Shown here: positions 2,752-60,235 of the stretch, piece after piece
How positions within the stretch are numbered: the stretch's first letter is position 1
How the letters are laid out: each line of letters starts with the position of its first letter
Assembly (NCBI RefSeq): GCF_031679605.1
Contig: NZ_CP117522.1
Coordinates: 4,774,001 to 4,838,000 of the forward strand
Reading direction: 5' to 3'
Length of the DNA stretch: 64,000 nt
Source: Streptomyces luomodiensis
GTDB taxonomy: Bacteria > Actinomycetota > Actinomycetes > Streptomycetales > Streptomycetaceae
Position numbers and translations under genes: made by a program
The notes under the pieces: model-generated
Told to the model about the DNA's origin: nothing
The model's input: only the letters and a program-made list of their open reading frames with translations
Databases searched by the model: none

Positions 2752-4610
2752 TCGGTATCGGTACACGGTGGTTCCCGACGACCCGGCGGAAGCGGAGCGC
2801 CACGGCGCTCGCCGAGGTCACCGAACACATCCTGGCGGGTGAGACCGCCGATGCGACCCTCCGGCTGATCGCCCGCCGGGTGCGTGAGCTCCTGGGCGCC
2901 GACATGGCGCGGGTGATGGTGCTGGAGCCGGGCGACGTCCTGACGATACGGGCCACCGACGGCGCCCCGTGGACCGCGCCGAGCGGACCGCTGACGCCCG
3001 GCGGCTCCTCCCCCGCCCGCCAGGCGATCCGCGCCGGACGGCCCACGGTGACCGGCCCGGAACAGCGGCCGCACCGGCACCGGGACCCCCGGCGCGCGGT
3101 CCCGGCCTCGGTCCTGGACGCGCCGCTGCTGGTGCGCGGCCACCCCGTGGGGGTGATCGAGGTGGCGAACCGCGGCGGCGGGCGCCGGCTCACCCATGCC
3201 GATGTGCGCACCGTGGGACGCTTCGGGGCGCCCGCCGGCCATGCCGTCGCCCAGATCCGGCACCGGGAACATCTGCGCCGACTGGCCTCCGCCGCCGCCG
3301 GACCGGGCTCCTCGGGTTCGGCGGATGCCGTGGGCGGCGCGGGCTCTGTGAGTTCTATGAGCTTCATGGGCTCTATGGGCTCCATGGCATCTACGGGATC
3401 TGCGGGCTCAGCGGGTTCAGCGGGCTCTATGAGCTTCATAGGTTCCATGGGCCCCGCGGGCGCGGCGAGGGTTTTCGGTTGCCCCCGTTCCTCCGGCTCC
3501 TCCGTACGGCGGACCCTGGACTCCCTGGCCGCGGGCGCGGTGGCCCGTACCGGCGCCGCGAGCTGCACGGTCTATCTGCTGGAGCCCGGCCCGTCGGCGC
3601 CCCTGCGCCTGGTGGGCGGCGGACACGGCCACACCCCGCCGTCGCGGAAACCCGCGCTGGAGGCGATCGCCGGGGCCGCGCCCGTCATCCACGGCGGCGG
3701 CCGTACGGGCGCGGACGGCGAGGGCCCGGCGCGGGGCGCGGTGGCCGCCTGGCCACTGCTGCGCGAGTCCACCGCGATCGGCGCGATGTGCTGCCACTTC
3801 CCGCCCGGCCGCGACCCCGGCGAGGCGGACCTCACCCTCCTGGAGGTGATCGCGGGGCATGCGTCCTGCGCGGTGGAGAGCGACCGGCAGCGGACGGCCG
3901 CCCTGGAGCGGGCGGTCCGGGAGGAGCGGCAGCGCATCGCGCGCGAGCTGCACGACTCGGTCTCGCAGGCGCTCTACGGCATCGCGCTGGGCGCCCGTAC
4001 CGCCCGTGAGCTGCTGGAACGCGATACCCGGCGGCCCGAGTCGGCGCACCGGGCGGAGCCGATCACCGGGGAGGAGCTGGGGGAACTCGCCGACCTGGCC
4101 GAACTCGCCGAGCCCATCGAGTACATCCGGCGGCTCGCGGACGCCGCGATCGCCGAGACCCGGACGCTGCTGTGCCGGCTGCGGCCCGAATCGCTGGAGA
4201 CCGAGGGCCTGGTGGCCGCGCTCGCCCATCATGTCGAGGCACTCCGGGCCCGGTACGGGATCGCCACCGAGGCGAAGCTCGACGCCGAACCGGAGACCAC
4301 ACCGGAGGCCAAGCACGCCCTGTACCGGATCGCCCAGGAATCGCTGCACAACATCGCCAAGCATTCACAGGCCCGGAACGTACGGCTCCATCTGCTCAAC
4401 GAACCCGGCGCCGTCACCTTGACCGTCGCCGACGACGGCGTGGGCTTCGACTGCAAGGGCTCGTTCCCCGGCCACCTCGGGCTGCTCTCCATGCGGGAAC
4501 GGGCCAGGGAGGTGGGCGGCACGCTGAACGTGGACAGCCGCCCCGGGCAGGGCAGCCGTATCCGGGCCAGGGTCCCGGCCGTACCGGGTACGACCGGGGC
4601 CGGCCGCTGA
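2736..4610 (+). CDS. GAF-GAF sensor histidine kinase
   Basis: About 624 aa with no transmembrane segment, so a soluble sensor. A first GAF-like domain covers roughly residues 20-180 and a second about 255-390. Then comes a HisKA_3 dimerisation helix (ARELHDSVSQAL, phospho-acceptor His406) and a HATPase domain (ALYRIAQESLHNIAKHS, DDGVGFD, GHLGLLSMRERA). Between the GAFs lies an odd Gly/Ser/Met linker encoded by a minisatellite. Start choice is open among GTG 2736, 2739 and 2748: the AGGGAG at 2728-2733 favours 2739, while 2748 gives a GTGA overlap with the regulator stop. Ligands of the GAF domains are unknown. Confidence 0.9.
   Translation: MVVGVIGIGTRWFPTTRRKRSATALAEVTEHILAGETADATLRLIARRVRELLGADMARVMVLEPGDVLTIRATDGAPWTAPSGPLTPGGSSPARQAIRAGRPTVTGPEQRPHRHRDPRRAVPASVLDAPLLVRGHPVGVIEVANRGGGRRLTHADVRTVGRFGAPAGHAVAQIRHREHLRRLASAAAGPGSSGSADAVGGAGSVSSMSFMGSMGSMASTGSAGSAGSAGSMSFIGSMGPAGAARVFGCPRSSGSSVRRTLDSLAAGAVARTGAASCTVYLLEPGPSAPLRLVGGGHGHTPPSRKPALEAIAGAAPVIHGGGRTGADGEGPARGAVAAWPLLRESTAIGAMCCHFPPGRDPGEADLTLLEVIAGHASCAVESDRQRTAALERAVREERQRIARELHDSVSQALYGIALGARTARELLERDTRRPESAHRAEPITGEELGELADLAELAEPIEYIRRLADAAIAETRTLLCRLRPESLETEGLVAALAHHVEALRARYGIATEAKLDAEPETTPEAKHALYRIAQESLHNIAKHSQARNVRLHLLNEPGAVTLTVADDGVGFDCKGSFPGHLGLLSMRERAREVGGTLNVDSRPGQGSRIRARVPAVPGTTGAGR
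3340..3465 (+). repeat. In-frame Gly/Ser/Met minisatellite in the kinase
   Basis: The linker between the two GAF domains is coded by imperfect copies of a GGCTCTATG / GGCTCCATG / GCGGGCTCA type 9-bp unit. It gives runs such as GSMGSMAS and GSAGSAGSAGSM. Base use is visibly less GC-biased than the flanking domains. All units keep frame, so length changes would alter linker length without breaking the gene. Confidence 0.75.
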
Positions 4611-4694
4611 CGACGACATGGCTGACGACACGGCAGACGGCACGACAGACGACGCGACAGACGACGCGACAGACGACACAGCAAACGACATATG
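4608..4694 (+). repeat. 12-bp tandem repeat spanning the kinase stop
   Basis: Beginning at the kinase stop codon, seven units follow in register: TGACGACGACATGGC, TGACGACACGGC, AGACGGCACGAC, two AGACGACGCGAC, AGACGACACAGC and AAACGACATATG. The first two units carry TGA where later ones carry AGA or AAA. No gene lies here; it fills the gap before the polyprenyl synthetase. Confidence 0.85.
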
Positions 4695-4708
4695 AGACAT
4701 TTCTGTCC

Positions 4709-5641
4709 ATGCAGCCGACCGTGCGGGACCGTGCGCTGGCGGACGGCCTCTGGGCCGCCCAAGCGGCGGTGGAAAAGGGCCTGTCGCGGGCCACCGAGAG
4801 CGATGTGCCGTTCATCACCGAGGCCGCGCGGGAGCTGACGCGCACGGCCGGGCTGCGGTTCCGGCCGCTGCTGGTACTGCTGGCGGCGCGGTTCGGCGAC
4901 CCCGGCGCACCGGGCGTGGTGCCCGCCGCCGTCGTCGTCGAACTGACCCATCTGGCCACGCACTACCACGACGGCGTCCGGGACGAGACGGCCGTACGGC
5001 GCGGCGCCCCGCGCCCGGACACCAACTGGGACAGCACGGTGGCGGTGCTCACCGGTGACTTCCTCTTCGCCCGCGCCTCGCACCTCCTGGCCGACCTGGG
5101 GCCACGGGCCGTACGCATCCAGGCCGAGGCGTTCCGGCGGCAGGTCACCGGCCAGATCCTGGCGACGACCGGACCGCGCGACGGCCGCGACCCGATCGAG
5201 CACCATCTGGAGGTGCTGGCGAGCCGGACCGGCTCGCTGACCGCCGTCTCCGGGCAGCTGGGCGCGCTGGCCTCGGGGGCGGACGCGAGCGTCGCGGACG
5301 CCCTCGTGCGGTACGGCGAACGGCTGGGCGTGGCGAGCCACCTCGCCGATGAGCTGGCGGCCCCCACCGGCCGCCGCCCCACCCTGCCCGTCCTCCTGCT
5401 GGCCCGTGCGGACCCGGAGCTGTACGCGCTGCTCACCGGGCCGGCCGAGAGGGCGGGGTACGCGGAGGCGGTGGCGCGGCTGCGCACCCACCCGGTCCTG
5501 GAACGGGCCCGCGAGGAGGCCGTCCGCCAGGCCGACGCGGCCCGCGCGGCGCTGTCCACGCTGCCCGACTGCCCGGCGAGGGCCGCCCTGGAAGCGCTGT
5601 GCGAGACGGTCGCCCCTACGGCACCCAGTAGTTGTGGCTGA
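4709..5641 (+). CDS. Polyprenyl synthetase-like protein, Asp motifs degenerate
   Basis: A 310-aa member of the trans-isoprenyl diphosphate synthase family by overall pattern: LRFRPLLVLLAA, VELTHLATHYHDGVRDETAVRRG, VAVLTGDFLFARA, QVTGQILAT and a late TLPVLLLA. The first Asp-rich motif, normally DDxxD, reads D88-G-V-R-D92, so one Asp is lost. The second region reads SHLADELAAPTGRRPTLPV, so the usual DDxxD and its loop are gone. This argues against a normal chain-elongating enzyme; a regulatory or partner subunit, or a diverged enzyme, is possible. ATG 4709 is chosen because upstream codons lie in the 12-bp repeat. It overlaps the GH8 gene tail-to-tail by 26 bp. Confidence 0.8.
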   Translation: MQPTVRDRALADGLWAAQAAVEKGLSRATESDVPFITEAARELTRTAGLRFRPLLVLLAARFGDPGAPGVVPAAVVVELTHLATHYHDGVRDETAVRRGAPRPDTNWDSTVAVLTGDFLFARASHLLADLGPRAVRIQAEAFRRQVTGQILATTGPRDGRDPIEHHLEVLASRTGSLTAVSGQLGALASGADASVADALVRYGERLGVASHLADELAAPTGRRPTLPVLLLARADPELYALLTGPAERAGYAEAVARLRTHPVLERAREEAVRQADAARAALSTLPDCPARAALEALCETVAPTAPSSCG

Positions 5642-6976: not shown

Positions 6977-7011
6977 GGCCGACACCTCTCCTCGAGCGTC
7001 AAGCGTTCTCG

Positions 7012-7029
7012 CGGTCAGCGCGGTCAGCG
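7012..7029 (-). repeat. 9-bp duplication carrying the PRC-barrel stop
   Basis: CGGTCAGCG occurs twice in direct tandem on the plus strand. On the gene strand this gives two in-frame TGA codons three codons apart, the first being the stop of the PRC-barrel gene. Confidence 0.75.
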
Positions 7030-7483: not shown

Positions 7484-7494
7484 GAATTGATCAG

Positions 7495-7713: not shown

Positions 7714-7735
7714 CCGCCAGGCAGGACAGACAAGA

Positions 7736-7769
7736 GGGGCCCGGCCGGAGAAATCCCCGGCCGGGCCCC
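7736..7769. terminator. Bidirectional terminator
   Basis: A perfect 13-bp GC stem (GGGGCCCGGCCGG with its complement) and an 8-nt loop, between two convergent genes: the small hydrophobic gene and the sigma factor. Confidence 0.8.
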
Positions 7770-7808
7770 ACGTCTGCCCGGGTCAGCGGAAGCCGTCCGT
7801 CCGCCTTC

Positions 7809-7890
7809 GCGGCAGCCACTCATCGCTTCTTCGCGGCAGCCACTGCTCGCTTCGCGACAGCCACTACTCGCCTCGCGACAGCCACTACTC
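7809..7890 (-). repeat. 21-bp tandem repeat spanning the sigma factor stop
   Basis: On the gene strand, units of the type TGG CTG TCG CGA GGC GAG TAG repeat four times. The sigma gene ends GCC GAG TAG. The next unit again ends GAG TAG, then units end GAG CAG and GAT GAG, and the frame closes at TGA after CGC. The unit is a multiple of three except for one 3-nt insertion, so frame is kept. Confidence 0.9.
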
Positions 7891-8877
7891 GGCGAGCATG
7901 CCGCGCCGCAACCGGCCGAGCGCACGGCTGAGCAGCCGGGAGACATGCATCTGTGAGACGCCGAGTTCGGTGCCGATCTCCGACTGCGTCATCTCCTCGC
8001 CGAACCGCAGCTGCAGAATGCGGCGGTCCCGCTCCCCGAGCTGTTCCACCAGCGGCTTGAGCGCGTGCAGGTTCTCCACGGCCTCCATGGCCGGGTCGAC
8101 GTCGCCGAACCGGTCCGCGTACGTGGTCACGCGGGCGGCCCCGCTCTCCTGGTCGGCGGGCGCGTCCAGCGAGGTGGTGAGGTAGCCGTTGCTGGCCACC
8201 AGCCCGTCGATGACCTCGTCCTCGCTCAGCTTCAGGTGCTCCGCGAGCTCGGCCGTCGTGGGCGACCGGTCCAGCCGCTGGAACAGCTCCTCGTTCGCCT
8301 TGGCCAGGTCGATGCGCAACTCCTGGAGACGGCGAGGGACGTGCACCGCCCAACTGGTGTCACGGAAGAACCGCTTGATCTCGCCGACGATGTACGGCAC
8401 GGCGAAGGTCGTGAACTCCACCTCACGGCTCAGGTCGAACCGGTCGATCGCCTTGATCAGCCCTATGGTGCCGACCTGGACGATGTCCTCCATCTCCACC
8501 GTGCGGTTGTGGAACCGCCGGGCGGCGTACCGGACCAGCGAGAGGTTGAGCTCGATGAGGGTGTTCCGCACGTACTGGTACTCGTGCGTCCCCTCCTCCA
8601 GCTCCGTCAGCCGGTCCAGGAACGTCTTGGTCAGCGCCCGCGCGTCCTTGGGCGCCACCTTCGCCGGTTCGTCCACCGAGGGCAGACCGATCGCTCCGGC
8701 ACTCTCGATTCCTACTGTGTCGTTGTCACTTACCCGAACCCCAAGTGCGTCCTCAGCTTCCGCCCCTGTCAGCTTCGACGTCACCACGGGTGCCGTGTAG
8801 TTCACTGTCGCACTCCCTGTATCGGCTGCATGCTTAGGCTGATTGGGGTCCCGTCTACCCACCTTCCAAACCTCCAT
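7885..8877 (-). CDS. SigB/SigF-family RNA polymerase sigma factor
   Basis: About 330 aa. Region 2 shows LIELNLSLVRYAARR and EMEDIVQVGTIGLIKAIDRFD; the core-binding end is FTTFAVPYIVGEIKRFFRD. Region 3 (LSEDEVIDGLVASNGY) and region 4 helix-turn-helix (MTQSEIGTELGVSQMHVSRLLSRAL) follow. This is the stress and sporulation sigma class controlled by RsbW-like anti-sigma factors. The start is uncertain. ATG 8877 has AAGGAGG only 1 nt upstream, whereas GTG 8862 has GGAGG 8 nt upstream and may be the real start. The C-terminus lies within a tandem repeat. Confidence 0.9.
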   Translation of the reverse strand: MEVWKVGRRDPNQPKHAADTGSATVNYTAPVVTSKLTGAEAEDALGVRVSDNDTVGIESAGAIGLPSVDEPAKVAPKDARALTKTFLDRLTELEEGTHEYQYVRNTLIELNLSLVRYAARRFHNRTVEMEDIVQVGTIGLIKAIDRFDLSREVEFTTFAVPYIVGEIKRFFRDTSWAVHVPRRLQELRIDLAKANEELFQRLDRSPTTAELAEHLKLSEDEVIDGLVASNGYLTTSLDAPADQESGAARVTTYADRFGDVDPAMEAVENLHALKPLVEQLGERDRRILQLRFGEEMTQSEIGTELGVSQMHVSRLLSRALGRLRRGMLAE

Positions 8878-11221: not shown

Positions 11222-12766
11222 TCAGCGGCAGCGGGTGTGGGGGGCGGGTGGGCGGCCGGTGAGGAGGTAGGTGTTGATCGCTCGGTCGACGCAGCCGCTG
11301 CCGCGGCCGTAGGCCGTATGGCCGTCGCCGTCGTAGGTGAGGAGGGTGGCGGAGGAGAGCTGGGCGGCCAGGGAGCGGGCCCAGCGGTAGGGGGTGGCGG
11401 GGTCGCGGGTGGTGCCGACGACGACGATGGGGGCGGCGCCCTTCGCGTGCAGGGGGTGCGGGGTGCCGGTCGGGCGGACGGGCCAGTAGGCGCAGTTCAG
11501 GGCGGCATAGGCGAGGGCCTCACCGAAGACGGGGGACGCCTTCTCGAAGGCGGGGAGGGACTTCCTGACCTCGGCGGGGGTGCGGAAGGCGGGTGGGAGG
11601 TCGAGGCAGTTGACGGCGGGGTTGGCGTACATGAGGTTGGCGTACGAGCCGTCGGTGTCGCGCTCGTAGTAGAGGTCGGCGAGGCCGAGCAGACCGCCGC
11701 CGTGGCCGCGCATCGCGGAGCGGAGGGCGGTGCGCAGCTGCGGCCAGGCGGTCTCGTCGTACATGGCGGAGATCACGCCCATGGTGGCGAGGGACTCGCC
11801 CAGGGCGCGGGACTCGCCGGTGCGGACCGGATGGGAGTCGAGGCGGGCGAAGAAGGCGCCGAGCCGGTCGCGGGCGGCGGCCACGGAGCGGGTGCCGAGG
11901 GGACAGCCGGTGCGGCGTACGCAGTCCTTGGCGAAGGCGGTGAAGGCGGTCTCGAAACCGGCGGTCTGGTCGCGGTTCATGCGCCGGGAGGACAGCGCCG
12001 GGTCGAGCGCGCCGTCGAGGACGAGACGGCCGACGCGGTGGGGGTAGAGGTCGGCGTAGGTCGCGCCGAGGAAGGTGCCGTAGGAGGCGCCGACGTAGTG
12101 GAGCTTCCGGTCGCCCAGCGCGGCGCGCAGCACGTCCATGTCGCGGGCCGCCTCGACCGTCGAGACATGGCCGAGGACCCGGCCGGAGCGGTCCGCGCAG
12201 CCTCGGGCGAACTTCTTGTAGGCGGCGACGAGGCGATCGGTCTCGCCGGGGGCGTCGGGCGTCTGGTCGGTCTGGGTGAAGGCGTCCATCTGCTTGTCGC
12301 TCAGACAGGTGACGGGCTCGCTGCCGGCCACGCCGCGCGGGTCCATCGCCACCATGTCGTAGCGGGCGCGCACCCGGGCCGGGTAGCCCACGGCCGCGAA
12401 GCTCTGTAGATAGCCGATCGCGGAGCCGCCGGGGCCGCCGGGGTTCACCAGGAGCGAACCGATGCGGCGGCCGGGGCCGGTCGCCTTCTCGCGGGAGACC
12501 GCGAGCTTCAGGTCCCGGCCGGTGCCGGGTCTGGCGTAGTCGAGCGGAGCCTTGAGCGTGGCGCATTCGAACTCCGCGCCGCCGCAGGGGCGCCAGCTCA
12601 GCGTCTGCTCGTAGTACGGCCTGAGGGCCGCGGGGACGGCCCGCTTCGACATGGACGCGGCGCGCGGCGAGGAGGCGCCGGCCGAGCAACCGGAGGACAG
12701 CAGGGCGGCGGCCGCGAGGGCGGCGCCGAGCGTCCGGAGCGGGCGGCTGCTGTGTCGGGTGTCCAT
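11222..12766 (-). CDS. Secreted alpha/beta-hydrolase, tripeptidyl aminopeptidase-like
   Basis: A 514-aa lipoprotein. The signal region after MDTRHSSRPLRTLGAAL ends in lipobox LLSSGCSAG. The alpha/beta-hydrolase core has the oxyanion segment NPGGPGGSA, nucleophile Ser in GASYGTFLG and a C-terminal catalytic His in GDGHTAYG. The C-terminal part fits the TAP-like domain of Streptomyces mycelial tripeptidyl aminopeptidases (SlpD/E type). It likely trims peptides outside the cell. ATG 12766 is chosen for the signal peptide. Conserved Cys pairs near the C-terminus may form disulfides. Confidence 0.85.
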   Translation of the reverse strand: MDTRHSSRPLRTLGAALAAAALLSSGCSAGASSPRAASMSKRAVPAALRPYYEQTLSWRPCGGAEFECATLKAPLDYARPGTGRDLKLAVSREKATGPGRRIGSLLVNPGGPGGSAIGYLQSFAAVGYPARVRARYDMVAMDPRGVAGSEPVTCLSDKQMDAFTQTDQTPDAPGETDRLVAAYKKFARGCADRSGRVLGHVSTVEAARDMDVLRAALGDRKLHYVGASYGTFLGATYADLYPHRVGRLVLDGALDPALSSRRMNRDQTAGFETAFTAFAKDCVRRTGCPLGTRSVAAARDRLGAFFARLDSHPVRTGESRALGESLATMGVISAMYDETAWPQLRTALRSAMRGHGGGLLGLADLYYERDTDGSYANLMYANPAVNCLDLPPAFRTPAEVRKSLPAFEKASPVFGEALAYAALNCAYWPVRPTGTPHPLHAKGAAPIVVVGTTRDPATPYRWARSLAAQLSSATLLTYDGDGHTAYGRGSGCVDRAINTYLLTGRPPAPHTRCR

Positions 12767-12821: not shown

Positions 12822-12905
12822 GCCTTGATCACCGAATCACTTGGATCACTGCTGGATCACTCGGACCGATGGATCGTTCGGATCGCTCGGATCACTCGGA
12901 TCGCC
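12822..12905. repeat. GGATCACTCG-type minisatellite
   Basis: About nine imperfect copies of GGATCACTCG (also GGATCGCTCG and GGATCGTTCG) fill the region upstream of the hydrolase gene. The gap to holB (12,767-13,013) holds no other feature I can support. Confidence 0.8.
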
Positions 12906-14267: not shown

Positions 14268-14830
14268 GGCTGCCTCCGCCGTCCGTGCTTACGGCATCCC
14301 ATTGTGGTCCACCCCACCGACAGCCCGGCGCACCCCTCGGCAACGACGCCCAGCCGGCCGTCAGCGCACCACCGTCACCACGCGCCCTCAGCGGTACCGG
14401 CCGTCGGCGGTACGGCCGTGTCAGCGACCTGCCGTCGGCAGTACGGGCCGTCAGCCCCCTACCGCAGCGCGCTGACGCCAGCGGTACAGGCTCGGCGGCA
14501 CCCGCCGTCAGCGGCCCATAACCAACGGCATAAACCCGCAGGACGGGCCGTCGGCCACCTGCCGCCAGCACGCCACCGCCAGCGGTACAGGCGACGCCAG
14601 CGACCTACCGCCGACGCCACCGCCAGCAGCACAGGCCGTCGGCGGCACCCGCCGTCAGCGACCTAGCGACACAAACCGCAGCACAGACCGTCAGCCACCT
14701 ACTGCCAGCACGCCGCCACCAGCGGTACCAGCCGTCGGCAGTACAGGCCGTCAGACAGCTACCGTCAGCACCGCCGCCAGCGGTACAGGCTCGGCGGCAG
14801 AGCCAATCAGCGGTACCGGCCGTCCTCGTC
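14268..14830 (-). repeat. Long degenerate repeat array at the tmk 3' end
   Basis: About 540 bp without a gene between tmk and holB. On the gene strand it is built of drifting copies of GACGGCCTGTACCGCTGG and CGGCGGTGCTGGCAGTAG. The first copy is the end of tmk itself (GAC GGC CGG TAC CGC TGA). A 20-bp core (GCCAGCGGTACAGGCTCGGC on the plus strand) recurs near 14,478 and 14,776. Confidence 0.85.
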
Positions 14831-18245: not shown

Positions 18246-18289
18246 GGCGCGGGCCTCACCCCGCCCCGGCCGCGCCGTCCTCTTCGGCG

Positions 18290-18428
18290 TCTCCGCCGCC
18301 TTCCGGCTCGACGTCGGCCGCCTTCCCGCTCGGCGTCCGCCGCCTTCCCGCTCGGCGTCCGCCCGCCTTCCGGCTCGACGTCGGCCGCCTCCCGCTCGGC
18401 GCCCGCCCGCCTTCCTACTCGGCGTTCG
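18290..18428 (-). repeat. 22-23-bp tandem repeat spanning the topA stop
   Basis: Six or seven units of GCCGCCTTCCCGCTCGGCGT type (plus strand). The unit nearest topA reads GCCCGCCTTCCTACTCGGCG and contains the topA stop (CTA on plus, TAG on the gene). Two units in the middle are identical; others alternate GGCGTCC with GACGTCG. Confidence 0.9.
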
Positions 18429-21267
18429 CCGACGACTTCTTGGCCGCCGTCGTCTTCTTGGCGGCGGTCTTCGCGGTCGTCTTCTTGGCGGCCGTCTTCG
18501 TGGCGGTCGTCTTCTTCGCCGCGGTCTTCTTGGCGGCGGTCTTCTTCGCCGCCGTCTTCTTGGCCGCGGTCTTCTTCGCCGCCGCCTTCTTGGCGGTCTT
18601 CTTCGCCGGGCCCTTGGCGCGCTTCTCGGCGAGCAGCTCATAGCCGCGCTCGGGCGTGATGGTCTCCACATCGTCGTCGCGGCGCAGTGTGGCGTTGGTC
18701 TCGCCGTCCGTGACGTACGGGCCGAAGCGGCCGTCCTTCACCACCACGGGCCGCTCGCTGACCGGGTCGGTGCCCAGCTCCTTCAGCGGCGGCTTGGCCG
18801 CGGCCCGGCCACGCTGCTTGGGCTGGGCGTAGATCGCCAGCGCCTGCTCGAGCGTGATGGTGAAGATCTGCTCCTCGCTCTCGAGCGACCGCGAGTCCGT
18901 GCCCTTCTTCAGGTACGGGCCGTAGCGGCCGTTCTGCGCGGTGATCTCGACGCCCTCGGGGTCGGTGCCGACCACGCGCGGCAGCGACATCAGCTTGAGC
19001 GCGTCCGCCAGGGTCACCGTGTCCAGGGACATCGACTTGAGCAGGGACGCGGTGCGCGGCTTGATGGCGTTCTTACCGCTCTTCGGGGTGTCCTCGGGGA
19101 GCACCTCGGTGACGTACGGACCGTAACGGCCGTCCTTGGCGACGATCATGCGGCCGGTCTCGGGGTCGGCGCCCAGCTCGAACTCGCCGCTCGGCTTGGC
19201 GAGCAGCTCCTCCGCGTACTCCACGGTCAGCTCGTCCGGCGGCAGGTCGTCGGGGACGTCGGCACGGCGGCCGGTGCCGCCCTCGACCTCCGCGGGGCGC
19301 TCGACGTACGGGCCGTAGCGGCCGACGCGCAGCACGATGCCGTCGCCCACGGGGAAGGACGAGATCTCCCGGGCGTCGATCGCGCCCAGGTCGGTGACCA
19401 GCTCCTTGAGGCCGCCGAGGTGGTCGCCGTCGCCGTTCCCGGCCTCGGCGGCACCGCCCGGCGTGCCTTCGCCGAAGTAGAAGCGCTTGAGCCACGGCAC
19501 GGCCTCGGCCTCGCCGCGCGCGATGCGGTCGAGGTCGTCCTCCATCTTGGCGGTGAAGTCGTAGTCGACCAGCCGGCCGAAGTGCTTCTCCAGCAGGTTG
19601 ACCACGGCGAAGCTCAGGAAGGAGGGCACGAGCGCGGTGCCCTTCTTGAAGACGTAACCGCGGTCGAGGATGGTGCCCAGGATCGTGGCGTAGGTCGAGG
19701 GGCGGCCGATCTCGCGCTCTTCGAGCTCCTTGACCAGCGACGCCTCGGTGTAGCGGGCCGGGGGCTTGGTCGCGTGGCCGTCGGCGGTGATCTCCTCGGC
19801 GGTGAGCCGGTCGCCCTCGGCGACCTGCGGCAGCCGGCGCTCACGGTCGTCCAGCTCGGCGTTCGGGTCGTCGGCGCCCTCCACATATGCCTTCAGGAAG
19901 CCGTGGAAGGTGATCGTCTTACCGGAGGCGGAGAACTCGGCGTCCCGGCCGTCGCTCGCCTGTCCGCCGATCTTGACGGTGACCGAGTTGCCGATCGCGT
20001 CCTTCATCTGGGAGGCGACGGTCCGCTTCCAGATCAGCTCATAGAGCCGGAACTGGTCGCCCGTGAGGCCGGTCTCGGCCGGGGTGCGGAAACGGTCTCC
20101 CGACGGGCGGATGGCCTCGTGCGCCTCCTGGGCGTTCTTGACCTTGCCCGCGTAGGTGCGCGGCTTGTCGGGCAGGTAGTCGGCGCCGTACAGCTGGGTG
20201 ACCTGCGCACGGGCCGCCGTCACCGCCGTGTCCGACAGGACGGTGGAGTCCGTACGCATATAGGTGATGTAGCCGTTCTCGTACAGCTTCTGCGCGACCT
20301 GCATGGTGGCCTTGGCACCGAAGCCCAGCTTCCGGCTGGCCTCCTGCTGAAGGGTCGTCGTGCGGAACGGCGCGTACGGCGAGCGGCGGTACGGCTTGGA
20401 CTCGACCGAACGCACCGTGAAGGCGGTGTCGGCGAGGGCGGTGGCCAGGGAGCGGGCGCCCGCCTCGTCCAGGTGCAGGACGCTGACGCCGTCCTTGAGC
20501 TGCCCGAGCGAGGTGAAATCGCGCCCCTGGGCGACCCGGATTCCGTCGACGGCCGTAAGGCGGGCACCGAAGGTGCCGGGGTCGCTGACGTCACCGGCCC
20601 GGCCGGTGGCAAAGGTGCCGGTGAGGTCCCAGTACTCGGCGGACCGGAAGGCCCTGCGCTCACGCTCGCGCTCGACGACAAGACGGGTGGCGACCGACTG
20701 CACCCGGCCCGCGGACAGGCCGCGCATGACCTTCTTCCACAGGACCGGCGACACCTCGTAGCCGTAGAGGCGGTCGAGGATGCGGCGGGTCTCCTGGGCG
20801 TCGACCAGGCGCTGGTTCAGCTCGCGCGGATTGGCCACGGCGGCCCGGATGGCGTCCTTGGTGATCTCGTGGAAGACCATGCGGCGGACCGGGACCTTGG
20901 GCTTGAGGACCTCCTGGAGGTGCCAGGCGATGGCCTCGCCCTCGCGGTCCTCATCGGTGGCCAGGAAGAGTTCGTCGGAGTCGGCGAGCAGCTCCTTGAG
21001 CTTCCTGACCTGGCTCTTCTTATCTGCGTTGACCACATAGACGGGCTGGAAGTCGTGCTCGACGTCCACACCGAGGCGCCGGACCTCACCGGTGTACTTG
21101 TCGGGAACCTCGGCCGCACCGTTCGGCAGGTCCCGGATGTGCCCGACGCTGGCCTCGACCACGTATCCCGGGCCGAGGTAGCCCTTGATCGTCTTCGCCT
21201 TGGCAGGCGACTCGACGATGACGAGTCGGCGGCCGCCCTGTGCGGTCTCGCTGGTGGTCGGGGACAA
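18415..21267 (-). CDS. topA: DNA topoisomerase I
   Basis: A 950-aa type IA topoisomerase. The TOPRIM domain has RLVIVESPAKAKTI and the acidic TDEDREGEAIAW; the 5Y-CAP region has ENGYITYMRTDS with the catalytic Tyr in YMRTDS. Several C-terminal repeats carry YGPY motifs (NGRYGPYLKKG, DGRFGPYVTDG). The last 65 residues are a Lys/Ala tail of KKTAAKKTAAKK type, typical of Streptomyces and thought to aid processive relaxation. The start is TTG at 21267, matching the conserved MSPTT..GGRRLVIVES N-terminus; GGAGAG lies about 10 nt upstream. Essential for removing negative supercoils. Confidence 0.96.
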   Translation of the reverse strand: MSPTTSETAQGGRRLVIVESPAKAKTIKGYLGPGYVVEASVGHIRDLPNGAAEVPDKYTGEVRRLGVDVEHDFQPVYVVNADKKSQVRKLKELLADSDELFLATDEDREGEAIAWHLQEVLKPKVPVRRMVFHEITKDAIRAAVANPRELNQRLVDAQETRRILDRLYGYEVSPVLWKKVMRGLSAGRVQSVATRLVVERERERRAFRSAEYWDLTGTFATGRAGDVSDPGTFGARLTAVDGIRVAQGRDFTSLGQLKDGVSVLHLDEAGARSLATALADTAFTVRSVESKPYRRSPYAPFRTTTLQQEASRKLGFGAKATMQVAQKLYENGYITYMRTDSTVLSDTAVTAARAQVTQLYGADYLPDKPRTYAGKVKNAQEAHEAIRPSGDRFRTPAETGLTGDQFRLYELIWKRTVASQMKDAIGNSVTVKIGGQASDGRDAEFSASGKTITFHGFLKAYVEGADDPNAELDDRERRLPQVAEGDRLTAEEITADGHATKPPARYTEASLVKELEEREIGRPSTYATILGTILDRGYVFKKGTALVPSFLSFAVVNLLEKHFGRLVDYDFTAKMEDDLDRIARGEAEAVPWLKRFYFGEGTPGGAAEAGNGDGDHLGGLKELVTDLGAIDAREISSFPVGDGIVLRVGRYGPYVERPAEVEGGTGRRADVPDDLPPDELTVEYAEELLAKPSGEFELGADPETGRMIVAKDGRYGPYVTEVLPEDTPKSGKNAIKPRTASLLKSMSLDTVTLADALKLMSLPRVVGTDPEGVEITAQNGRYGPYLKKGTDSRSLESEEQIFTITLEQALAIYAQPKQRGRAAAKPPLKELGTDPVSERPVVVKDGRFGPYVTDGETNATLRRDDDVETITPERGYELLAEKRAKGPAKKTAKKAAAKKTAAKKTAAKKTAAKKTAAKKTTATKTAAKKTTAKTAAKKTTAAKKSSANAE

Positions 21268-21971: not shown

Positions 21972-23543
21972 TTATATGCCGTCCTCGCCGAATATGCCGT
22001 CGTCGCCGACCGGCCGCAGAAAGCCCTGCTCGACCAGGAGCCGGATGGACTGCGGTGTGCGGTCGCGCAGCACCACCGGGTCCTCCCCGAGCAGCTGGGC
22101 GATGGCGTCCAGGATCCGGCCCGCGCTCAGTGTGCCGTCGCACACACCCGCGAAACCCGCCCCGACCGTGTCCACCTTCGTGGCGCGCCGCATCCCCCGG
22201 TGCTGCCTGAGCACCACATGCTCCGGATCCTCGGCTCCGGGCGGGCCCACCTGCTCCTGGACGACCTCGTCCGCCAGCTGGAAGCGGGCGGTCAGCAGCG
22301 CCGCGTCGTCATGCGTCCGCAGGAAGTCCTGCCGGCCAAAGTGGGCCATGACCTCGCTCCCCAGCGGCTGCTCGACCGGATGGGGCCACTCCTCCACGGT
22401 CACCGAGGGCCGGTCGGCGCCGGACTTGCGCAGGGTGATCCAGCCGAAACCGACGGCCTTGGTCCTCCGCGCCTCGAACTCGTCCAGCCAGGCGTCGTAG
22501 CGCGCCGCGTACGTCTCGCGGCCGGCCAGGTGCTCACCCGCGTCGCGCAGCCACAGCTCGGTGTACTGGGTGATGTCCTGCACCTCGCGCTGCACGATCC
22601 AGGCGTCACAGCCGGCCGGGACCCAGGAGGCCAGCCGCTCGCGCCAGTCCTCCCCCTCGATGTGCTGCCAGTTGGCGAGCAGCTGGCACCAGCCGCCGTC
22701 GGCCAGATGCCCGGCGGACCGCTGGACGAGGGTGCGGCACAGATCGTCCCCGGACATCCCGCCCTCCCGGTAGACCAGCTCGCTGCCCTCCGGGGCGCGC
22801 GGGGAGATCACAAAGGGCGGGTTGGAGACGATCAGGTCGTACGTCTCGTCCCGGACCGGCTCGAACAGCGACCCCTCGCGCAGATCGGGCTCCGGCGCCC
22901 CGGACAGGGCGAGGGTCAGCCGGGCGATGGCCAGGGCGCGGGGATTGCGGTCCGTGGCGGTGACGCGGTTGGCGTGACGGCCCGCGTGCAGCGCCTGGAT
23001 ACCGGAGCCGGTGCCCAGGTCGAGGACCCGGTCCACGCGCGCGGGGACGGTGAGACCGGCGAGCGTGGTGGACGCCCCGCCCACCCCGAGGACGAGCCGG
23101 GAGCGGTCCGCACGCCCCCGCGCGCCGCCGATCCCTCCCGCACCGCCGACCGCGCAACCCAGGTCGGAGACGATCCACCAGTCCTGGCCCTCGGGACCGC
23201 CGTACGGCCGCACATCGACGGTCGCGCGCACCTCGTCGCCGTCGCGCACCAGCCAGCCGTCCGCGAGACAGTCCTCGACCGGCAGGGCCGCGGCCGCCCG
23301 CCCGTGGGCCACGGGGTGCTGCAGCAGAAACAGCCGCACCAAGGTCTCCAGCGGGCTCTCGCCCCGGGTGGCGCGCCGCGCCGGGACGGTCTCCCCGCGC
23401 GCCAGGGCCGCATAGGCGGACGGACCGAGCTGATCGAGCAGACCATCGGCGGTGAAGGCGGCGGCAGACAGCGCCTCGCGAAGGCGGGCGGTGCGCTCGG
23501 GGTCGGCGGTGGGGAGGCGGAACGGGAGCTGGTGCGTACTCAC
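21972..23543 (-). CDS. Class I SAM-dependent methyltransferase
   Basis: A 523-aa protein. The N-terminal region (to about 150) is a helical domain seen in actinobacterial homologues. The methyltransferase fold follows with VLDLGTGSGIQALHA (SAM site) and VSNPPFVIS, the NPPF motif of N-methyltransferases acting on amide or exocyclic amine groups, as in HemK/RsmC types. The target may be a ribosomal or RNA component but is not known. The GTG at 23543 (MSTHQLPFRLP) gives the conserved start. The last codons (GACGGCATAT duplicated 15 nt apart) suggest a small terminal duplication. Confidence 0.85.
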   Translation of the reverse strand: MSTHQLPFRLPTADPERTARLREALSAAAFTADGLLDQLGPSAYAALARGETVPARRATRGESPLETLVRLFLLQHPVAHGRAAAALPVEDCLADGWLVRDGDEVRATVDVRPYGGPEGQDWWIVSDLGCAVGGAGGIGGARGRADRSRLVLGVGGASTTLAGLTVPARVDRVLDLGTGSGIQALHAGRHANRVTATDRNPRALAIARLTLALSGAPEPDLREGSLFEPVRDETYDLIVSNPPFVISPRAPEGSELVYREGGMSGDDLCRTLVQRSAGHLADGGWCQLLANWQHIEGEDWRERLASWVPAGCDAWIVQREVQDITQYTELWLRDAGEHLAGRETYAARYDAWLDEFEARRTKAVGFGWITLRKSGADRPSVTVEEWPHPVEQPLGSEVMAHFGRQDFLRTHDDAALLTARFQLADEVVQEQVGPPGAEDPEHVVLRQHRGMRRATKVDTVGAGFAGVCDGTLSAGRILDAIAQLLGEDPVVLRDRTPQSIRLLVEQGFLRPVGDDGIFGEDGI

Positions 23544-23704: not shown

Positions 23705-23856
23705 GGGAAGCGGGATCCCGGGCGGGTCCGCGAGGACCGCGCGGAGCCGCCCAGGACAGCGCGGAGCCGTCCAGGACCGCGCGGAGCCGCCCAGGACCGC
23801 GCAGTGCCCCTTAGGGCTCCGCCGTGCCCCTTAGGACTCCGCGGGACCCTTAGGAC
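23705..23856 (-). repeat. 20-bp tandem repeat spanning the lipoprotein stop
   Basis: On the gene strand seven units of about 20 bp follow: CAGTCCTAAGGGTCCCGCG, GAGTCCTAAGGGGCACGGCG, GAGCCCTAAGGGGCACTGCG, then CGGTCCTGGGCGGCTCCGCG types. The first unit contains the lipoprotein stop TCC TAA, and two more also carry CCTAA. The array fills most of the 306-bp gap to the methyltransferase gene. Confidence 0.9.
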
Positions 23857-24422
23857 TGCGTAGTGGCGCCGGCGCTCGTCTTCGGCTTCTGGCAGCCGGG
23901 CTGCTTGGCCATGGCCGAGCCGACCTTTCCTTCCTGTAGCTTCCGCAGGGCCTGGTCACCCGACTTGCTGAGCTTGTCGAGATCATCGGCGATGTCCTTG
24001 AGCCCCTGGGCGAACTTGGACTTGTCCGAGGTGTCCAGCTTGTCGACGGCCGTCCTCAGCTTCGTGTACGCCACGGAGGTGGCGTTGAGCTCCTTGACCG
24101 CCTGCTTGTGGGTCTCCTCGCCCTTGTCCACGGGCGGAGCGCCCGCGCTGTTCACGGCCTTGGCGAGCGCGCCGTAGGACTCGGAGATCTCCTGGAACGC
24201 CGCGGAGTCGGTCTGCTGAAGCTTCTTGGAGTCCTGCTCGTCGGCGGCACCCTGGATGGCGGTATTGGCGCCCTGAATCTTCTTCAGCTGCGGCTGCACC
24301 TCGTCACAGACCGACTTGGCCCAGTCGTTGACCTTCTTGTCCTCATCGCCGCCCCCGCAGCCGGTCAGCGCCAGTACGAGTGCCGCACCGCCGGACAGTG
24401 CAGCCACAAGCTTCTTGTTCAC
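23850..24422 (-). CDS. Lipoprotein of unknown function
   Basis: A 190-aa exported protein: MNKKLVAALSGGAALVLAL then lipobox LTGCGGG. The mature part is Lys/Asp/Gln-rich and largely helical (VNDWAKSVCDEVQPQLKK, KFAQGLKDIADDLDKLSKSG), with Cys in VCDEV and PGCQ that may pair. GTG 24422 is chosen because GGAAGGG lies about 9 nt upstream and it gives a standard signal peptide. It sits downstream of hppA beyond a terminator. A small secreted helical lipoprotein; no function inferred. Confidence 0.8.
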   Translation of the reverse strand: MNKKLVAALSGGAALVLALTGCGGGDEDKKVNDWAKSVCDEVQPQLKKIQGANTAIQGAADEQDSKKLQQTDSAAFQEISESYGALAKAVNSAGAPPVDKGEETHKQAVKELNATSVAYTKLRTAVDKLDTSDKSKFAQGLKDIADDLDKLSKSGDQALRKLQEGKVGSAMAKQPGCQKPKTSAGATTQS

Positions 24423-27106: not shown

Positions 27107-27727
27107 TCGTCCTCCTTGACGTTTGGCACATGGGCGCGCAGCAGTTCTGCGACCGCAGAAGAGCCGCCACGCTCAGGCGTCCTGAGCTCGAGATGTGGAC
27201 GGATTGTAGGGAGCGTCACACGATCAAAACAGGGCACCGGAATGGGAATTCGCCCGCACCAGCGAAGATCAATAGGTTTGGCGGTATGAATTCCTTCGGA
27301 AGAAGGAAGGTCGACAATTAACTGACGGATGTAAAATGATCTACATAAATGATCTCACGCCGCTCTAAGAAAGCGCTGCTCAAAGGATACGCGCGAGATC
27401 GAAAATGCGCGCGCCGAGAGGCCCGCTGTGGCCATAGGGCCGAGCGGAGCACGGGCACGCCGACGCCCCGGACCGGCGATCATGAAACGGCCGATCCGGT
27501 GGTACAGCGGATCAGTAAGGCACGGCCCGGAGCGGGGCCCAAGGCCCTCCGGCGGGGCAAGGCCCCGAAAGGCCCCGATCGGAGAGGGCAAGCACATCAG
27601 GGCCCCGGCCAGGACACGAGATCTGGCCGGAAGAGACGCTGAAGAAACCAGGAGAAGAAACCAGGACAGGACAGGGCCCTGCCCCAACGAGGTCAGGTCA
27701 GCACACCCGGAACCGGCCAGGACACCG
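27107..27727. other. Gene-poor region upstream of hppA
   Basis: About 620 bp with no convincing coding sequence. The part at 27,240-27,400 is clearly AT-richer than the window, with a stretch AATTAACTGACGGATGTAAA at 27,316-27,335, and probably holds the hppA promoter. The rest is repeat-like purine-rich DNA of AGGACAC and CCGGAAG type. Open frames on the plus strand lack GC-rich third positions. Confidence 0.6.
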
Positions 27728-27885
27728 GAACCCGGCCGGAAGGGCCAGTACAGAGATCTGCCCAATGGGCCAGGAAACCGGGACCCGGCGTGAAGGGCCA
27801 GGACAGGCATCTGCCCAATGGGCCAGGACACGGGCTCGGCCACGACAGCCGGACCCGGCAGATCGGCCTAGCAGATCGGCCTAGG
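27728..27885 (-). repeat. 54-bp duplication and 14-bp repeat at the rsbW-like 3' end
   Basis: A unit of about 53 bp (containing AGATCTGCCCAATGGGCCAG or its AGGCATCTG variant) occurs twice, 27,728-27,781 and 27,782-27,833. Nearer the gene, CTAGGCCGATCTGC on the gene strand occurs twice in tandem; the first copy contains the stop codon TAG. Confidence 0.85.
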
Positions 27886-32332: not shown

Positions 32333-32384
32333 GACGGCCCCCCTTGGCCTGTTCGCTGTCCTGCCCGCGGCGTCACTGACCACG

Positions 32385-32448
32385 GTGCTGTCGTTCTGTG
32401 GTGCTGTCGTTCTGTGGTGCTGTCGTTCTGTGGTGCTGTCGCCGTGCC
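32385..32448 (-). repeat. 16-bp tandem repeat inside the Tad operon
   Basis: GTGCTGTCGTTCTGTG occurs three times exactly, followed by GTGCTGTCGCCGTGCC and weaker copies to about 32,530. It lies between the tadC-like gene and the pilin gene, the only wide gap in the operon. Confidence 0.9.
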
Positions 32449-32555
32449 GGTGTCGTTTCGTCGTGCTGTTGCCGTGCCGCTGTCGTTCGTGCCGCCACCG
32501 GCTGTCGTTGCCGGTGACGTTTCGTGTCGCTGTCATCGCGTTGTCTCACCGGTGC

Positions 32556-42136: not shown

Positions 42137-44098
<1,962 letters not shown>

Positions 44099-44125: not shown

Positions 44126-44184
44126 GGGGCGACACCGGTGGGCAACGGCCGACACCGGTCGACACCGGTCGAGACGGTCGGCAC
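44126..44184 (+). repeat. ACACCGGTCG-type repeats
   Basis: After the acsA stop, GACACCGGTGGGCAACGGCC is followed by two CGACACCGGT copies and CGAGACGGTCGG, a short degenerate array before the acsA terminator. Confidence 0.6.
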
Positions 44185-45855: not shown

Positions 45856-46317
45856 ATGAGCGCAGCCGACGACGGCGGCAACCGCAGCCTCGGCCAGCTG
45901 GTGGCGACGGCGACCACCGAGCTGTCGGCGCTGGTGCACGACGAGATCGCGCTGGCCAAGGCCGAGCTCCGGGTGGGAGCCAAGAAGGCCGCGGTCGGCA
46001 GCGGCGCCGGTATGGCGGCCGGGGTGCTGCTGCTCTTCTCGCTGCCGGTGCTGAGCTTCGCCCTCGCCTACGGCATGCGCTCCTGGACCGGACTCGGCCT
46101 CGCCTGGTGCTTTCTGATCGTGGGCGGTATCTACTGGCTGTTCGCCGGGATTCTGGGCATGGTGGCGCTGCTGAAGTTCAAGAGGGTCAAGGCGCCCAAG
46201 CGGTCGATCGCCTCGTCCAAGGAGACGGCCGCCGTACTGGGCAGCGTCAAGCCGCATCCGCGTGCCGCGAGCAATGGCGGACGCCCCGCGCGGGATGTGA
46301 CACGCTCGTCGGCATGA
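45856..46317 (+). CDS. Phage-holin-family (DUF1469-type) membrane protein
   Basis: About 153 aa. An N-terminal amphipathic stretch (SLGQLVATATTELSALVHDEIALAKAEL) precedes two membrane helices (MAAGVLLLFSLPVLSFALAYG, and LAWCFLIVGGIYWLFAGILG) and a basic tail. This family is named after holins but is chromosomal and of unknown function. ATG 45856 is chosen because GGGAG lies 7 nt upstream, while the ATG at 45850 touches it. The stop overlaps the next ATG (ATGA). Confidence 0.82.
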   Translation: MSAADDGGNRSLGQLVATATTELSALVHDEIALAKAELRVGAKKAAVGSGAGMAAGVLLLFSLPVLSFALAYGMRSWTGLGLAWCFLIVGGIYWLFAGILGMVALLKFKRVKAPKRSIASSKETAAVLGSVKPHPRAASNGGRPARDVTRSSA

Positions 46318-51380: not shown

Positions 51381-51410
51381 AGGGCCCTGCCGGAATCCCG
51401 GCGGGGCCCT
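51381..51410 (+). terminator. crp terminator
   Basis: AGGGCCC-T-GCCGG pairs with CCGGC-G-GGGCCCT around AATC. It lies 35 nt after the crp stop. Confidence 0.85.
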
Positions 51411-51512
51411 TACGGCGCTCCGGAACGGCGCTCCCGAACGATGTCCCGGCACGGCGCTCCGGGAACGGCGCTCCGGAACAATGCCCCGGCACGGCGCTCC
51501 GGAACGGCGTAG
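51411..51512. repeat. GGAGCGCCGT-type minisatellite
   Basis: Between crp and the MBL gene, GGCGCTCCGGAACGGCGCTC-type blocks alternate with ATGTCCCGGCA and ATGCCCCGGCA blocks. A two-step unit of about 39-40 bp is repeated. No gene. Confidence 0.85.
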
Positions 51513-53391: not shown

Positions 53392-53499
53392 GGCCGGATG
53401 CTATGCGCTCACGGGCTGATGTTCGAGTGGCTCCGACGGCGCCACGCCGGGGGCGGTCCGGGCACGGCGGTCCGGGCACGGCCGTCGCACCGGCCCGCC

Positions 53500-53645
53500 C
53501 CTCCCCGCGCCGACCTACGCATCCCCGCGCCGGCCCACGCACCCGCGCGCCGACCCGCGCATCCCCGCGCCGGCCGGCCCGCCCCCGGCTCCGCTCGCTG
53601 GTCCGCGACCTCGACCTGGATCTAGTCCGCGACCTCGACCTGGAT
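53500..53645 (-). repeat. Repeat array spanning the RidA stop
   Basis: A 24-bp unit (ATCCAGGTCGAGGTCGCGGA, then C-T/C-AG on the gene strand) occurs twice in tandem at 53,598-53,645. The first copy ends in the RidA stop TAG, the second in CAG. Farther away (about 53,505-53,580) a second array repeats CGCGCCGACC with GCATCCCCGCGCCGG. Confidence 0.9.
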
Positions 53646-54092
53646 CTCGACCTCGACCGGGGCGTCCAGCGGCAGCACCGCCACGCCCACCGCGCTGCGC
53701 GCGTGCACGCCCGCGTCGCCCAGGACCTCGCCGAGCAGCTCGCTCGCGCCATTGACGACGCCCGGCTGGCCGGTGAAGTCCGGCGCCGAGGCGACGAAGC
53801 CGACGACCTTCACCACCCGCACGATGCGGTCGAGGTCACCGACGACCGACTGCACGGCGGCCAGCGCGTTCAGCGCACAGGTGCGCGCCAGCTCCTTGGC
53901 CTCCTCCGGGGTCACCTCCGCGCCGACCTTGCCGGTCACGCCCAGCTTCCCCTCGACCAGCGGCAGCTGGCCCGAGGTGTAGACGTACGGGCCGGTGCGG
54001 ACCGCGGGCACGTACGCGGCGAGGGGCGCCGCGACCTCGGGCAGCGTCAGACCGAGCCCGGCGAGCCTGCCCTCGACCGCGCCGCTGCCCAT
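53622..54092 (-). CDS. RidA-family protein
   Basis: A 156-aa protein: TLPEVAAPLAAYVPAVRTG, VYTSGQLPLVEGKLGVTGKV, and TCALNALAAVQSVVG are RidA family blocks; VLPLDAPVEVEIQVEVA closes it. The Arg of the active-site region normally near position 105 is not obvious, so enamine deaminase activity is uncertain. ATG 54092 follows DUF4177 with a TGATG overlap. Its last codons and stop are duplicated downstream. Confidence 0.85.
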   Translation of the reverse strand: MGSGAVEGRLAGLGLTLPEVAAPLAAYVPAVRTGPYVYTSGQLPLVEGKLGVTGKVGAEVTPEEAKELARTCALNALAAVQSVVGDLDRIVRVVKVVGFVASAPDFTGQPGVVNGASELLGEVLGDAGVHARSAVGVAVLPLDAPVEVEIQVEVAD

Positions 54093-56820: not shown

Positions 56821-56852
56821 CAGGCCATGTGTCCCACAGGCCATGTGGCCCA
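56821..56852. repeat. 16-bp tandem duplication
   Basis: CAGGCCATGTGTCCCA is followed by CAGGCCATGTGGCCCA, one mismatch, in the 359-bp gap between the ArsA pair and wblA. Further on, GATCGACTG-like and GACCACGAG-like repeats occur (57,000-57,080). No gene. Confidence 0.8.
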
Positions 56853-57801: not shown

Positions 57802-57808
57802 GCCTCCT

Positions 57809-60070: not shown

Positions 60071-60092
60071 CGGTGACCGTGACTGAGCGCTG

Positions 60093-60124
60093 AAGGGGGC
60101 CGGACAGAGATGTCCGGCCCCCTT
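60093..60124 (+). terminator. PBP terminator
   Basis: A perfect 14-bp stem, AAGGGGGCCGGACA with its complement, around GAGA, followed by CTTGG. It lies 22 nt after the PBP stop. Confidence 0.9.
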
Positions 60125-60127
60125 CTT

Positions 60128-60235
60128 GGCTATGTGCGCCCTACGGTTACGCCATGCGATCTTACGGTTACGCCGAGCGTCTTACGGCTTGGCCGTGCGG
60201 CCTTACGGCTTAGCCATGCGGCGCCTTACGGCCGC
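60128..60235 (-). repeat. About 21-bp tandem repeat, five units
   Basis: On the minus strand, units starting CGTAAGGCGCCGCATGGCTA, CGTAAGGCCGCACGGCCA, CGTAAGACGCTCGGCG, CGTAAGATCGCATGGCG and CGTAGGGCGCACATAGCC lie head to tail. They sit between two convergent genes, PBP and yqeY, 75 nt beyond the yqeY stop. Confidence 0.85.

Follow-up and report, generated by a model that had tools for sequence, protein, structure and literature searches.

Why do tandem repeats run across the stop codons of so many genes in one stretch of a Streptomyces chromosome? The stretch, hereafter the window, is 64,000 nucleotides long and corresponds to positions 4774001-4838000 of the 10.04 Mb single-contig genome of Streptomyces luomodiensis (the window genome). 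An initial annotation of these letters had listed nine gene ends at which the repeat unit contained the stop codon, and had viewed them as a class of stop-spanning minisatellites caused by slippage or end-joining near terminators, or by selection on 3' ends. We find that the arrays are real, but that their overlap with stop codons is the edge of a layer of minisatellites in the 3' flanks of genes. Their units are private to each locus, and the arrays probably arise by microhomology-guided duplication that is then filtered by selection.

Results

Arrays accumulate downstream of stop codons

Arrays were defined as merged rows of Tandem Repeats Finder (TRF) output with a score of at least 50 and a period of at least 7, which gave 571 arrays in a 1.258 Mb sample of the window genome (five blocks, 940 genes called by a codon-usage script and not taken from public annotation). 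Among these, 78 overlapped a stop codon and 16 a start codon, against means of 32.6 and 33.1 and maxima of 47 and 48 in 200 trials of random placement. The proposed excess at 3' ends is therefore beyond chance, and it is also seen outside the window alone (71 stop and 16 start overlaps; 536 arrays, 890 genes). The stop count exceeded every random trial at score thresholds from 36 to 100, with no clear excess at a threshold of 150 (11 overlaps; random mean 8.4, maximum 16).

The stop codon is nevertheless not where arrays are densest. They cover about 2% of coding sequence; towards the gene end the fraction is 1-3%, rising to 4.9% over the final 20 nt. Past the stop it reaches 11% within 20 nt (12.5% within 30 nt) and 14% at 20-60 nt, then falls to about 5% by 200 nt; upstream of starts it is 2-6%. 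Moreover, 61 of the 213 arrays touching stop-ended spacers cross the gene end, where 68.3 are expected under uniform placement and 37.8 if intrusion into the gene is held to at most 20 nt. The distinct stop-spanning class was accordingly rejected: crossing at the level of uniform placement means that arrays are indifferent to the stop codon and not drawn to it. Arrays that overlap a stop extend further past it than into the gene (medians of 51 nt and 10 nt).

Array content also varies with spacer orientation, being 26.1% in convergent (n = 142), 9.9% in tandem (n = 440) and 4.6% in divergent spacers (n = 164). For spacers of at least 60 bp the values are 26.5% (confidence interval 19-35%), 10.1% and 4.6%, and convergent and divergent spacers differ with p = 1.2e-13 (Mann-Whitney). 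Dinucleotide-shuffled spacers yielded 0.5%, 0.2% and 0.02%, versus real values of 25.5%, 9.6% and 4.3%. In the middle of long divergent spacers, arrays make up 5-6% of the sequence even at 250 nt or more from genes.

Units are locus-private and keep the frame inside genes

Among the 287 arrays touching non-coding sequence, 236 have a period of 9-30 bp and 262 are no longer than 150 bp. The period is divisible by three in 136 of them, versus 256 of 284 fully coding arrays; the same holds for 62 of 63 perfect coding duplications and for 27 of 79 stop-overlapping arrays. That units differ from gene to gene, as had been read in the window, is borne out by the larger sample: 262 of 276 mostly non-coding arrays have no detected DNA similarity to another, and the largest cluster contains four. 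One dispersed element was rejected on these grounds for the bulk of the sampled arrays. Most arrays are imperfect, and those in tandem spacers are 76% G+C. Their transcript strand was not found to be G-rich (GC skew -0.077), nor was extra RNA structure found (mean folding z -0.79, n = 69, versus -0.72 in ordinary 3' flanks, n = 150).

Perfect duplications were taken from the window genome, from a genome at 90% identity to it (G400), and from two further comparison genomes (G181 and G013). In spacers, the partial third copy has a mean length of 4.86 nt versus 0.84 nt expected (79 of 90 duplications, those with a partial copy shorter than the unit), and in coding sequence 4.45 nt (58 of 63); 19 of the 79 spacer duplications have no microhomology. 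This excess points to microhomology-guided duplication. Between the window genome and a second genome of the same species (G376), duplications from one to two copies are few (only 14), with a mean microhomology of 2.79 versus 1.03 at random positions.

Arrays turn over between strains and species

G376 shares 97.5% identity with the window genome over aligned blocks above 2 kb. We compared spacers as slots, namely those of 295 gene pairs in a 458-kb block (both genes at least 300 bp, spacer at most 1500 bp, gene calls from the window genome only), of which 240 could be mapped in G376 and 174 in G400. Among convergent and tandem slots of at least 60 bp, 59 of the 82 with an array in either same-species genome have one in both. 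Slots that carry an array in both genomes mostly differ in length (18 of 19 convergent, 39 of 51 tandem, any indel being counted), which is true of fewer slots that are array-free in both (5 of 13 convergent, 13 of 84 tandem). Alignment of the two resolved seven clear array expansions, in addition to 120 other indels of 6-120 nt that are not recognisable as exact copies. In the aligned slots of G400, genes and hairpins are kept whereas arrays are absent or different, and slot occupancy is weakly correlated with that of the window genome (array in both, 33; in neither, 28; in one only, 36; n = 97; odds ratio 3.0, p = 0.014).

A similar picture emerges at topA. Of 57 named Streptomyces loci, topA was called in 52, and 13 of these have an array within 150 nt of its stop codon, with units of 12-53 bp. 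Three of the 13 arrays overlap the stop, and apart from a 14-nt match shared by one pair they show no mutual similarity. Over nine genes, the frequency of arrays per slot among species ranges from 2% to 34%.

In other Streptomyces, arrays are rare in the 3' flanks of the window genes 11222-12766 and 24659-27106 (1 of 46 and 4 of 48 loci), unlike those of seven neighbour genes, which are followed by arrays in 14-34% of loci. It is possible that these two genes have constrained 3' ends.

The rise after stop codons extends to other actinobacterial families

Comparison with relatives, which had been put forward as a check, shows that post-gene arrays recur in other species. In G376, G400, G181 and G013, arrays cover 9.5-18% of the first 100 nt after stops and 1.3-2.8% of coding sequence. 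We also assembled 57 named Streptomyces topA loci (relatives of the window genome at topA mostly bear this name), five loci from other Streptomycetaceae and 18 from other actinobacterial families, the labels of the non-Streptomyces loci being presumed from genus names; the sets of five and 18 are small, and all are centred on topA. With topA excluded, array fractions are 3.6-4.1% at gene ends and 8.6-10.1% after stops in Streptomyces (624 genes), 2.6-3.1% and 5.8-8.6% in other Streptomycetaceae, and 0.8-1.3% in genes and 3.5-4.8% after stops in other families. As all sets rise after the stop, the shape is shared, and the Streptomyces level is two to three times higher. A restriction of the enrichment to Streptomycetaceae was dropped because of the lower-level rise in other families once topA was excluded.

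Convergent spacers consist of arrays to 16.2% in G013, 17.9% in G400 and 20.8% in G376, and to 8.7% (versus 2.0-2.5%) in other families. Stop overlaps number 21, 8 and 7 in G400, G181 and G013, above the random mean and within the trial maxima of 25, 12 and 10. Perfect duplications per 100 kb of 3' flank amount to 35-88 in the Streptomyces sets, 18 in other Streptomycetaceae (one event; 47 in the 5' flank, three events) and 16 in other families (three events).

Substitutions, indels and hairpins around arrays

Outside arrays, with very long or very unequal slots excluded, divergence between the window genome and G376 in convergent spacers (0.0267) and the 3' half of tandem spacers (0.0264) is close to, and slightly higher than, that at fourfold sites (0.0237), and drops to 0.0137 in the 5' half of tandem spacers, 0.0113-0.0126 in divergent spacers and 0.0090 in flanking genes (90 nt). 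Indels of at least 6 nt follow the same order across spacer classes, more steeply, with 7.2 per kb in convergent spacers, 4.3 and 1.4 in the 3' and 5' halves of tandem spacers, about 0.5 in divergent spacers and 0.48 in flanking genes.

Terminator-like hairpins were predicted by a simple stem rule. In 53 convergent spacers, arrays cover 6.6% of the sequence inside hairpins versus 23.5% outside. In 127 tandem spacers with a hairpin (from the window genome, G400, G181 and G013), they cover 19.2% from stop to hairpin (12,085 bp), 9.5% of the hairpin and 5.4% beyond it (18,953 bp, the zone ending 80 nt before the next start), with a bootstrap range of 0.077-0.200 for the difference before and after; 247 tandem spacers with no predicted hairpin contain 14.3%. 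In the comparison with G376 (31 spacers), the substitution rate falls past the hairpin from 0.0368 to 0.0195, and the ratio of indels to substitutions is the same on both sides (14/73 and 12/61). Taken together, the constraint, hairpin and indel data suggest that filtering by selection explains most of the pattern.

Array fraction does not differ with replication direction (10.15% for co-directional and 10.17% for head-on genes), and head-on replication conflict was rejected on this basis. No trend was found with a codon-usage proxy of expression (quartiles 0.130, 0.254, 0.251 and 0.146; 108 core genes each).

Arrays of the window

At a score of at least 30, TRF gave 152 rows in the window, where 50 genes were called. 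Seven arrays scoring at least 50 overlap a stop codon and none a start (Table 1). Five belong to the nine ends listed initially (7885, 18415, 23850, 27881 and 53622), and two, at 21972 and 63991, had been missed. As to the other listed ends, the repeat at 7024 is weak, that at 4608 begins only after the TGA, and the helicase end at 31253 carries, by eye, a spaced 28-bp direct repeat starting from the last two stop bases, which is not a tandem array; at the tmk stop (14807), no array scoring at least 36 touches the stop in the window genome. Nine arrays free of stops had been listed as well. Those near 12822, 27728, 32385, 44126, 51411, 56821 and 60128 score at least 50; the one near 1114 reaches only 37, and the one placed at 45798 actually lies further along, within a called gene.

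Pfam matches bear out the initial naming of the kinase, PRC-barrel, sigma factor, thymidylate kinase, topoisomerase, RsbW-like ATPase, helicase and RidA-like genes; the gene ending at 23850, initially called a lipoprotein, matched no Pfam family. TopA matches Topoisom_bac plus an HC2-like tail. This C-terminal tail (18428-18626) consists of in-frame repeats, and a search with this region located similar DNA at 18 further sites in the genome. The spacer 14268-14806, after the tmk-like gene, holds a far larger array in G376 (period 149 bp, score 538). An Rfam scan of the window returned only two tRNAs at gathering score, and no match of the arrays to a curated RNA family.

Table 1. Tandem arrays, duplications and terminator-like hairpins of the window, with their state in G376 and G400
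Feature	Position	Strand	TRF score	Context	Related genomes
12-bp array	4612..4690	+	88	directly after TGA (4608-4610) of GAF/histidine kinase gene (Pfam)	weaker array in G376 with equal-length spacer; spacer 34 bp in G400
9-bp unit, about 2 copies (2.2), weak	7010..7029	-	40	over stop (7024) of PRC-barrel gene (Pfam PRC)	
terminator-like hairpin	7736..7769	.		read by eye; beyond SigF 3' array	
21/24-bp array, about 4 copies	7805..7891	-	105	over SigF-like stop 7885; sigma-70 domains	3' spacer 45 nt shorter in G376
9/17-bp array	12827..12902	-	64	spacer between genes ending 12766 and starting 13014	
16-bp degenerate array	14391..14452	-	59	spacer after tmk-like gene (Thymidylate_kin), short of stop 14807	
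22/67-bp array	18284..18431	-	227	over topA stop 18415; continues into in-frame coding repeats to 18626	
18-bp in-frame duplication	21974..22009	-	65	coding end of gene 21972-23543; one-base contact with stop	
adjoining 20-bp arrays	23728..23857	-	126 and 81	over stop 23850 of gene without Pfam match	one shorter array in G376; none of score at least 50 in G400
53-bp array	27707..27831	-	185	spacer after RsbW-like gene	
13-bp duplication	27858..27884	-	54	over RsbW-like stop 27881; HATPase_c_2	no counterpart of score at least 50 in G376
16/30-bp array	32384..32488	.	130	spacer 32273-32555 between short called genes	
10-bp array	44130..44184	+	61	between stop at 44098 and downstream hairpin (by eye)	
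array	45870-45936			inside called gene 45856-46317	
terminator-like hairpin	51381..51410	.		between convergent genes	kept in G376 and G400
13/40-bp array	51412..51509	-	166	between minus-gene stop 51518 and shared hairpin	no array of score at least 50 kept in G400, although hairpin 51381-51410 is kept
20-bp array	53486..53575	-	110	spacer after RidA-like gene	below detection in G376; spacer there 60 nt shorter
24-bp duplication	53601..53658	-	95	contains RidA-like stop 53622; Pfam YjgF/L-PSP	present in G376; G400 differs at that point
16-bp two-copy repeat	56821..56852	.	57	in spacer	
terminator-like hairpin	60093..60127	.			stem kept in window genome, G376 and G400
21-bp array	60138..60232	.	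81	between convergent genes, beyond hairpin 60093-60127	below threshold in G376; other arrays in G400
17-bp array	63976..64000 (full 63976-64075)	+	117 on extended sequence	over last-gene stop 63991	similar array in G376

Larger differences between the two same-species genomes were also seen. At the 3' half of the tRNA-Pro (CGG) gene at 61895-61969, G376 has a 19.4-kb stretch of lower G+C (63%), absent from the window genome and bounded at its far end by a direct repeat of about 43 bp with one mismatch, like an integrated island. Outside the window, about 13 kb of the window genome (G000:C1, about 4859400-4872500) is absent from G376 by alignment.

Discussion

The location of the arrays, their turnover, their unit lengths in and out of genes, the excess of microhomology and a 3'-flank divergence close to that of fourfold sites lead us to favour locus-private duplication followed by selective filtering. 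Short tandem duplications, with units mostly of 9-30 bp, would arise by microhomology-guided misalignment or end-joining, and their copy number would then change. Selection would clear most arrays from promoter-side spacers, terminator hairpins and coding sequence, those left in genes being mainly in-frame. Arrays would build up between stop and terminator, a stretch that diverges at close to the neutral rate. If a duplication takes in the end of the reading frame with its stop codon and a few bases beyond, the protein would be unchanged, because the first stop remains in place, and any unit length would be tolerated; array edges would thus cross the stop about as freely as if it were absent. 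Of the causes first suggested, slippage or end-joining is favoured for the origin of the arrays, with microhomology above chance, although the hairpin itself is avoided; selection on 3' ends found no echo in tests for selection on array structure. The accessible part of a review describes NucS, the mismatch-repair enzyme of actinobacteria, as unable to correct short indels (PMC8228993), and in Streptomyces ambofaciens its loss is described, in the available text, as leaving the indel rate without much change (PMC11109965). This shortfall could leave slipped intermediates unrepaired.

Several observations weigh against this account. Few of the indels between the window genome and G376 were recognised as copies of adjacent sequence (13 of 51 in convergent spacers, 13 of 47 in tandem 3' halves), and almost none of those against G400. 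The excess of partial copies could partly reflect decayed longer arrays, and perfect duplications over stops have a partial copy of only 1.43 nt (n = 7). Against G400, substitutions in 3' flanks (0.111-0.116; convergent 0.116, tandem 3' half 0.111) lie below those at fourfold sites (0.139), and hence are not fully neutral, and the stop side of the hairpin has about twice as many indels per substitution as the far side (45/117 versus 48/237, 22 spacers). Between the same-species genomes, convergent spacers exceed tandem 3' halves in indels (7.2 versus 4.3 per kb) at an equal substitution rate. Tandem-spacer arrays are about fourfold rarer in the sampled chromosome arms (0.8-1.0 and 9.0-9.2 Mb) than in the core (blocks between 3.0 and 6.8 Mb; 2.8% versus 11.7%), and arms are usually regarded as less constrained. 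In G181, convergent spacers equal tandem ones (8.8% and 8.6%); the 57 named topA loci show no enrichment of arrays in convergent spacers (only 2.6%), and their stop overlaps number 33 versus 33.2 at random. Finally, as far as its available text goes, a mutation-accumulation study in S. ambofaciens reports only indels of 1-4 bp, repeated sequences being omitted (PMC11109965).

Alternatively, the transcribed but untranslated 3' region could be a mutational hotspot, turned on at the stop codon by ribosome loss and turned off at the terminator; nascent RNA and polymerase pausing before the terminator would expose single-stranded DNA or form R-loops, giving duplications on replication. The sharp rise in density at the stop would fit, as would its fall past the predicted hairpin to the level of divergent spacers, the steady 5-6% in the middle of long divergent spacers, and the top density, in the window genome, of convergent spacers, which are entered from both sides; the surplus of convergent indels at an equal substitution rate hints at it too. 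Yet substitutions also drop past the hairpin, with equal indels per substitution against G376, neither replication direction nor the expression proxy has an effect, and the transcript strand is not G-rich, so that we regard a hotspot as unlikely. Still less plausible is that arrays are selected for, as multi-hairpin terminators, mRNA-stabilising 3' structures or backup stop codons. Their position between stop and terminator and the stop triplet repeated, by eye, in several units would suit such roles, but array RNA folds no more strongly than that of ordinary 3' flanks, hairpins are avoided, the surroundings evolve near the neutral rate, units differ between species, and about two thirds of stop periods are not divisible by three, which places repeated stops mostly out of frame.

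We give almost no credence to a dispersed repeat family inserting at gene ends in the manner of MIRU or REP elements: intergenic position and copy-number variation recall such elements, but singletons dominate and clusters hold four arrays at most. Assembly error or chance is very unlikely as well. Tandem repeats do misassemble in general, and the arrays are known from assembled sequence alone; against this, shuffling reproduces only 0.02-0.5%, many of the same slots carry arrays in G376, arrays recur in other species, and most (262 of 287) are short enough to fall within ordinary read lengths.

Variable-number tandem repeats (VNTRs), or minisatellites, are arrays of units of about 9-60 bp that differ between strains, and in bacteria they are usually met as scattered typing loci. 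The arrays described here likewise have head-to-tail units and a length that varies between strains, but they make up about a quarter of the sampled convergent spacer sequence. MIRU elements are actinobacterial, intergenic and tandem, and overlap adjacent stop and start codons; they form one dispersed sequence family, whereas nearly every locus here has its own unit. The nearest published parallel that we found is provided by the tandem repeats of archaeal Borgs (PMC9879509), which, in the part of that paper available, share with our arrays unit lengths divisible by three in genes and free outside, as well as flanking partial repeats. Borg repeats are described there as perfect, A-enriched and extrachromosomal, unlike the often imperfect, GC-rich arrays on this bacterial chromosome, which are concentrated between stop and terminator. 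The available part of a tree-of-life survey reports that bacterial short tandem repeats weakly prefer positions downstream of transcription ends (PMC12699852); it deals with short-unit repeats in all life, whereas the units here are longer and the effect several-fold. A survey of prokaryote satellites counts 38 in Streptomyces coelicolor and, in its accessible text, does not mention placement in 3' flanks (PMC6749651). Small variable segments of bacterial genomes include many intergenic loci, and a word search of the accessible text of that study returned no Streptomyces, convergent genes or stop codons (PMC2884548). Among the open-licence papers listed by searches for Streptomyces tandem repeats in spacers or after genes, none describes such placement in its title or the opening of its abstract.

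Stop-containing repeats are the visible edge of a fast-changing minisatellite layer in 3' flanks, which in this genome is large enough to bear on strain typing and assembly as well as on spacer length and the annotation of gene ends. The layer offers natural, countable loci for asking whether duplication is promoted when transcription proceeds without translation, or whether selection on its own determines where repeats lie in bacterial genomes. Were the hotspot true, gene 3' ends in Streptomyces would bear a minisatellite layer that renews itself by copying the last codons of each gene.

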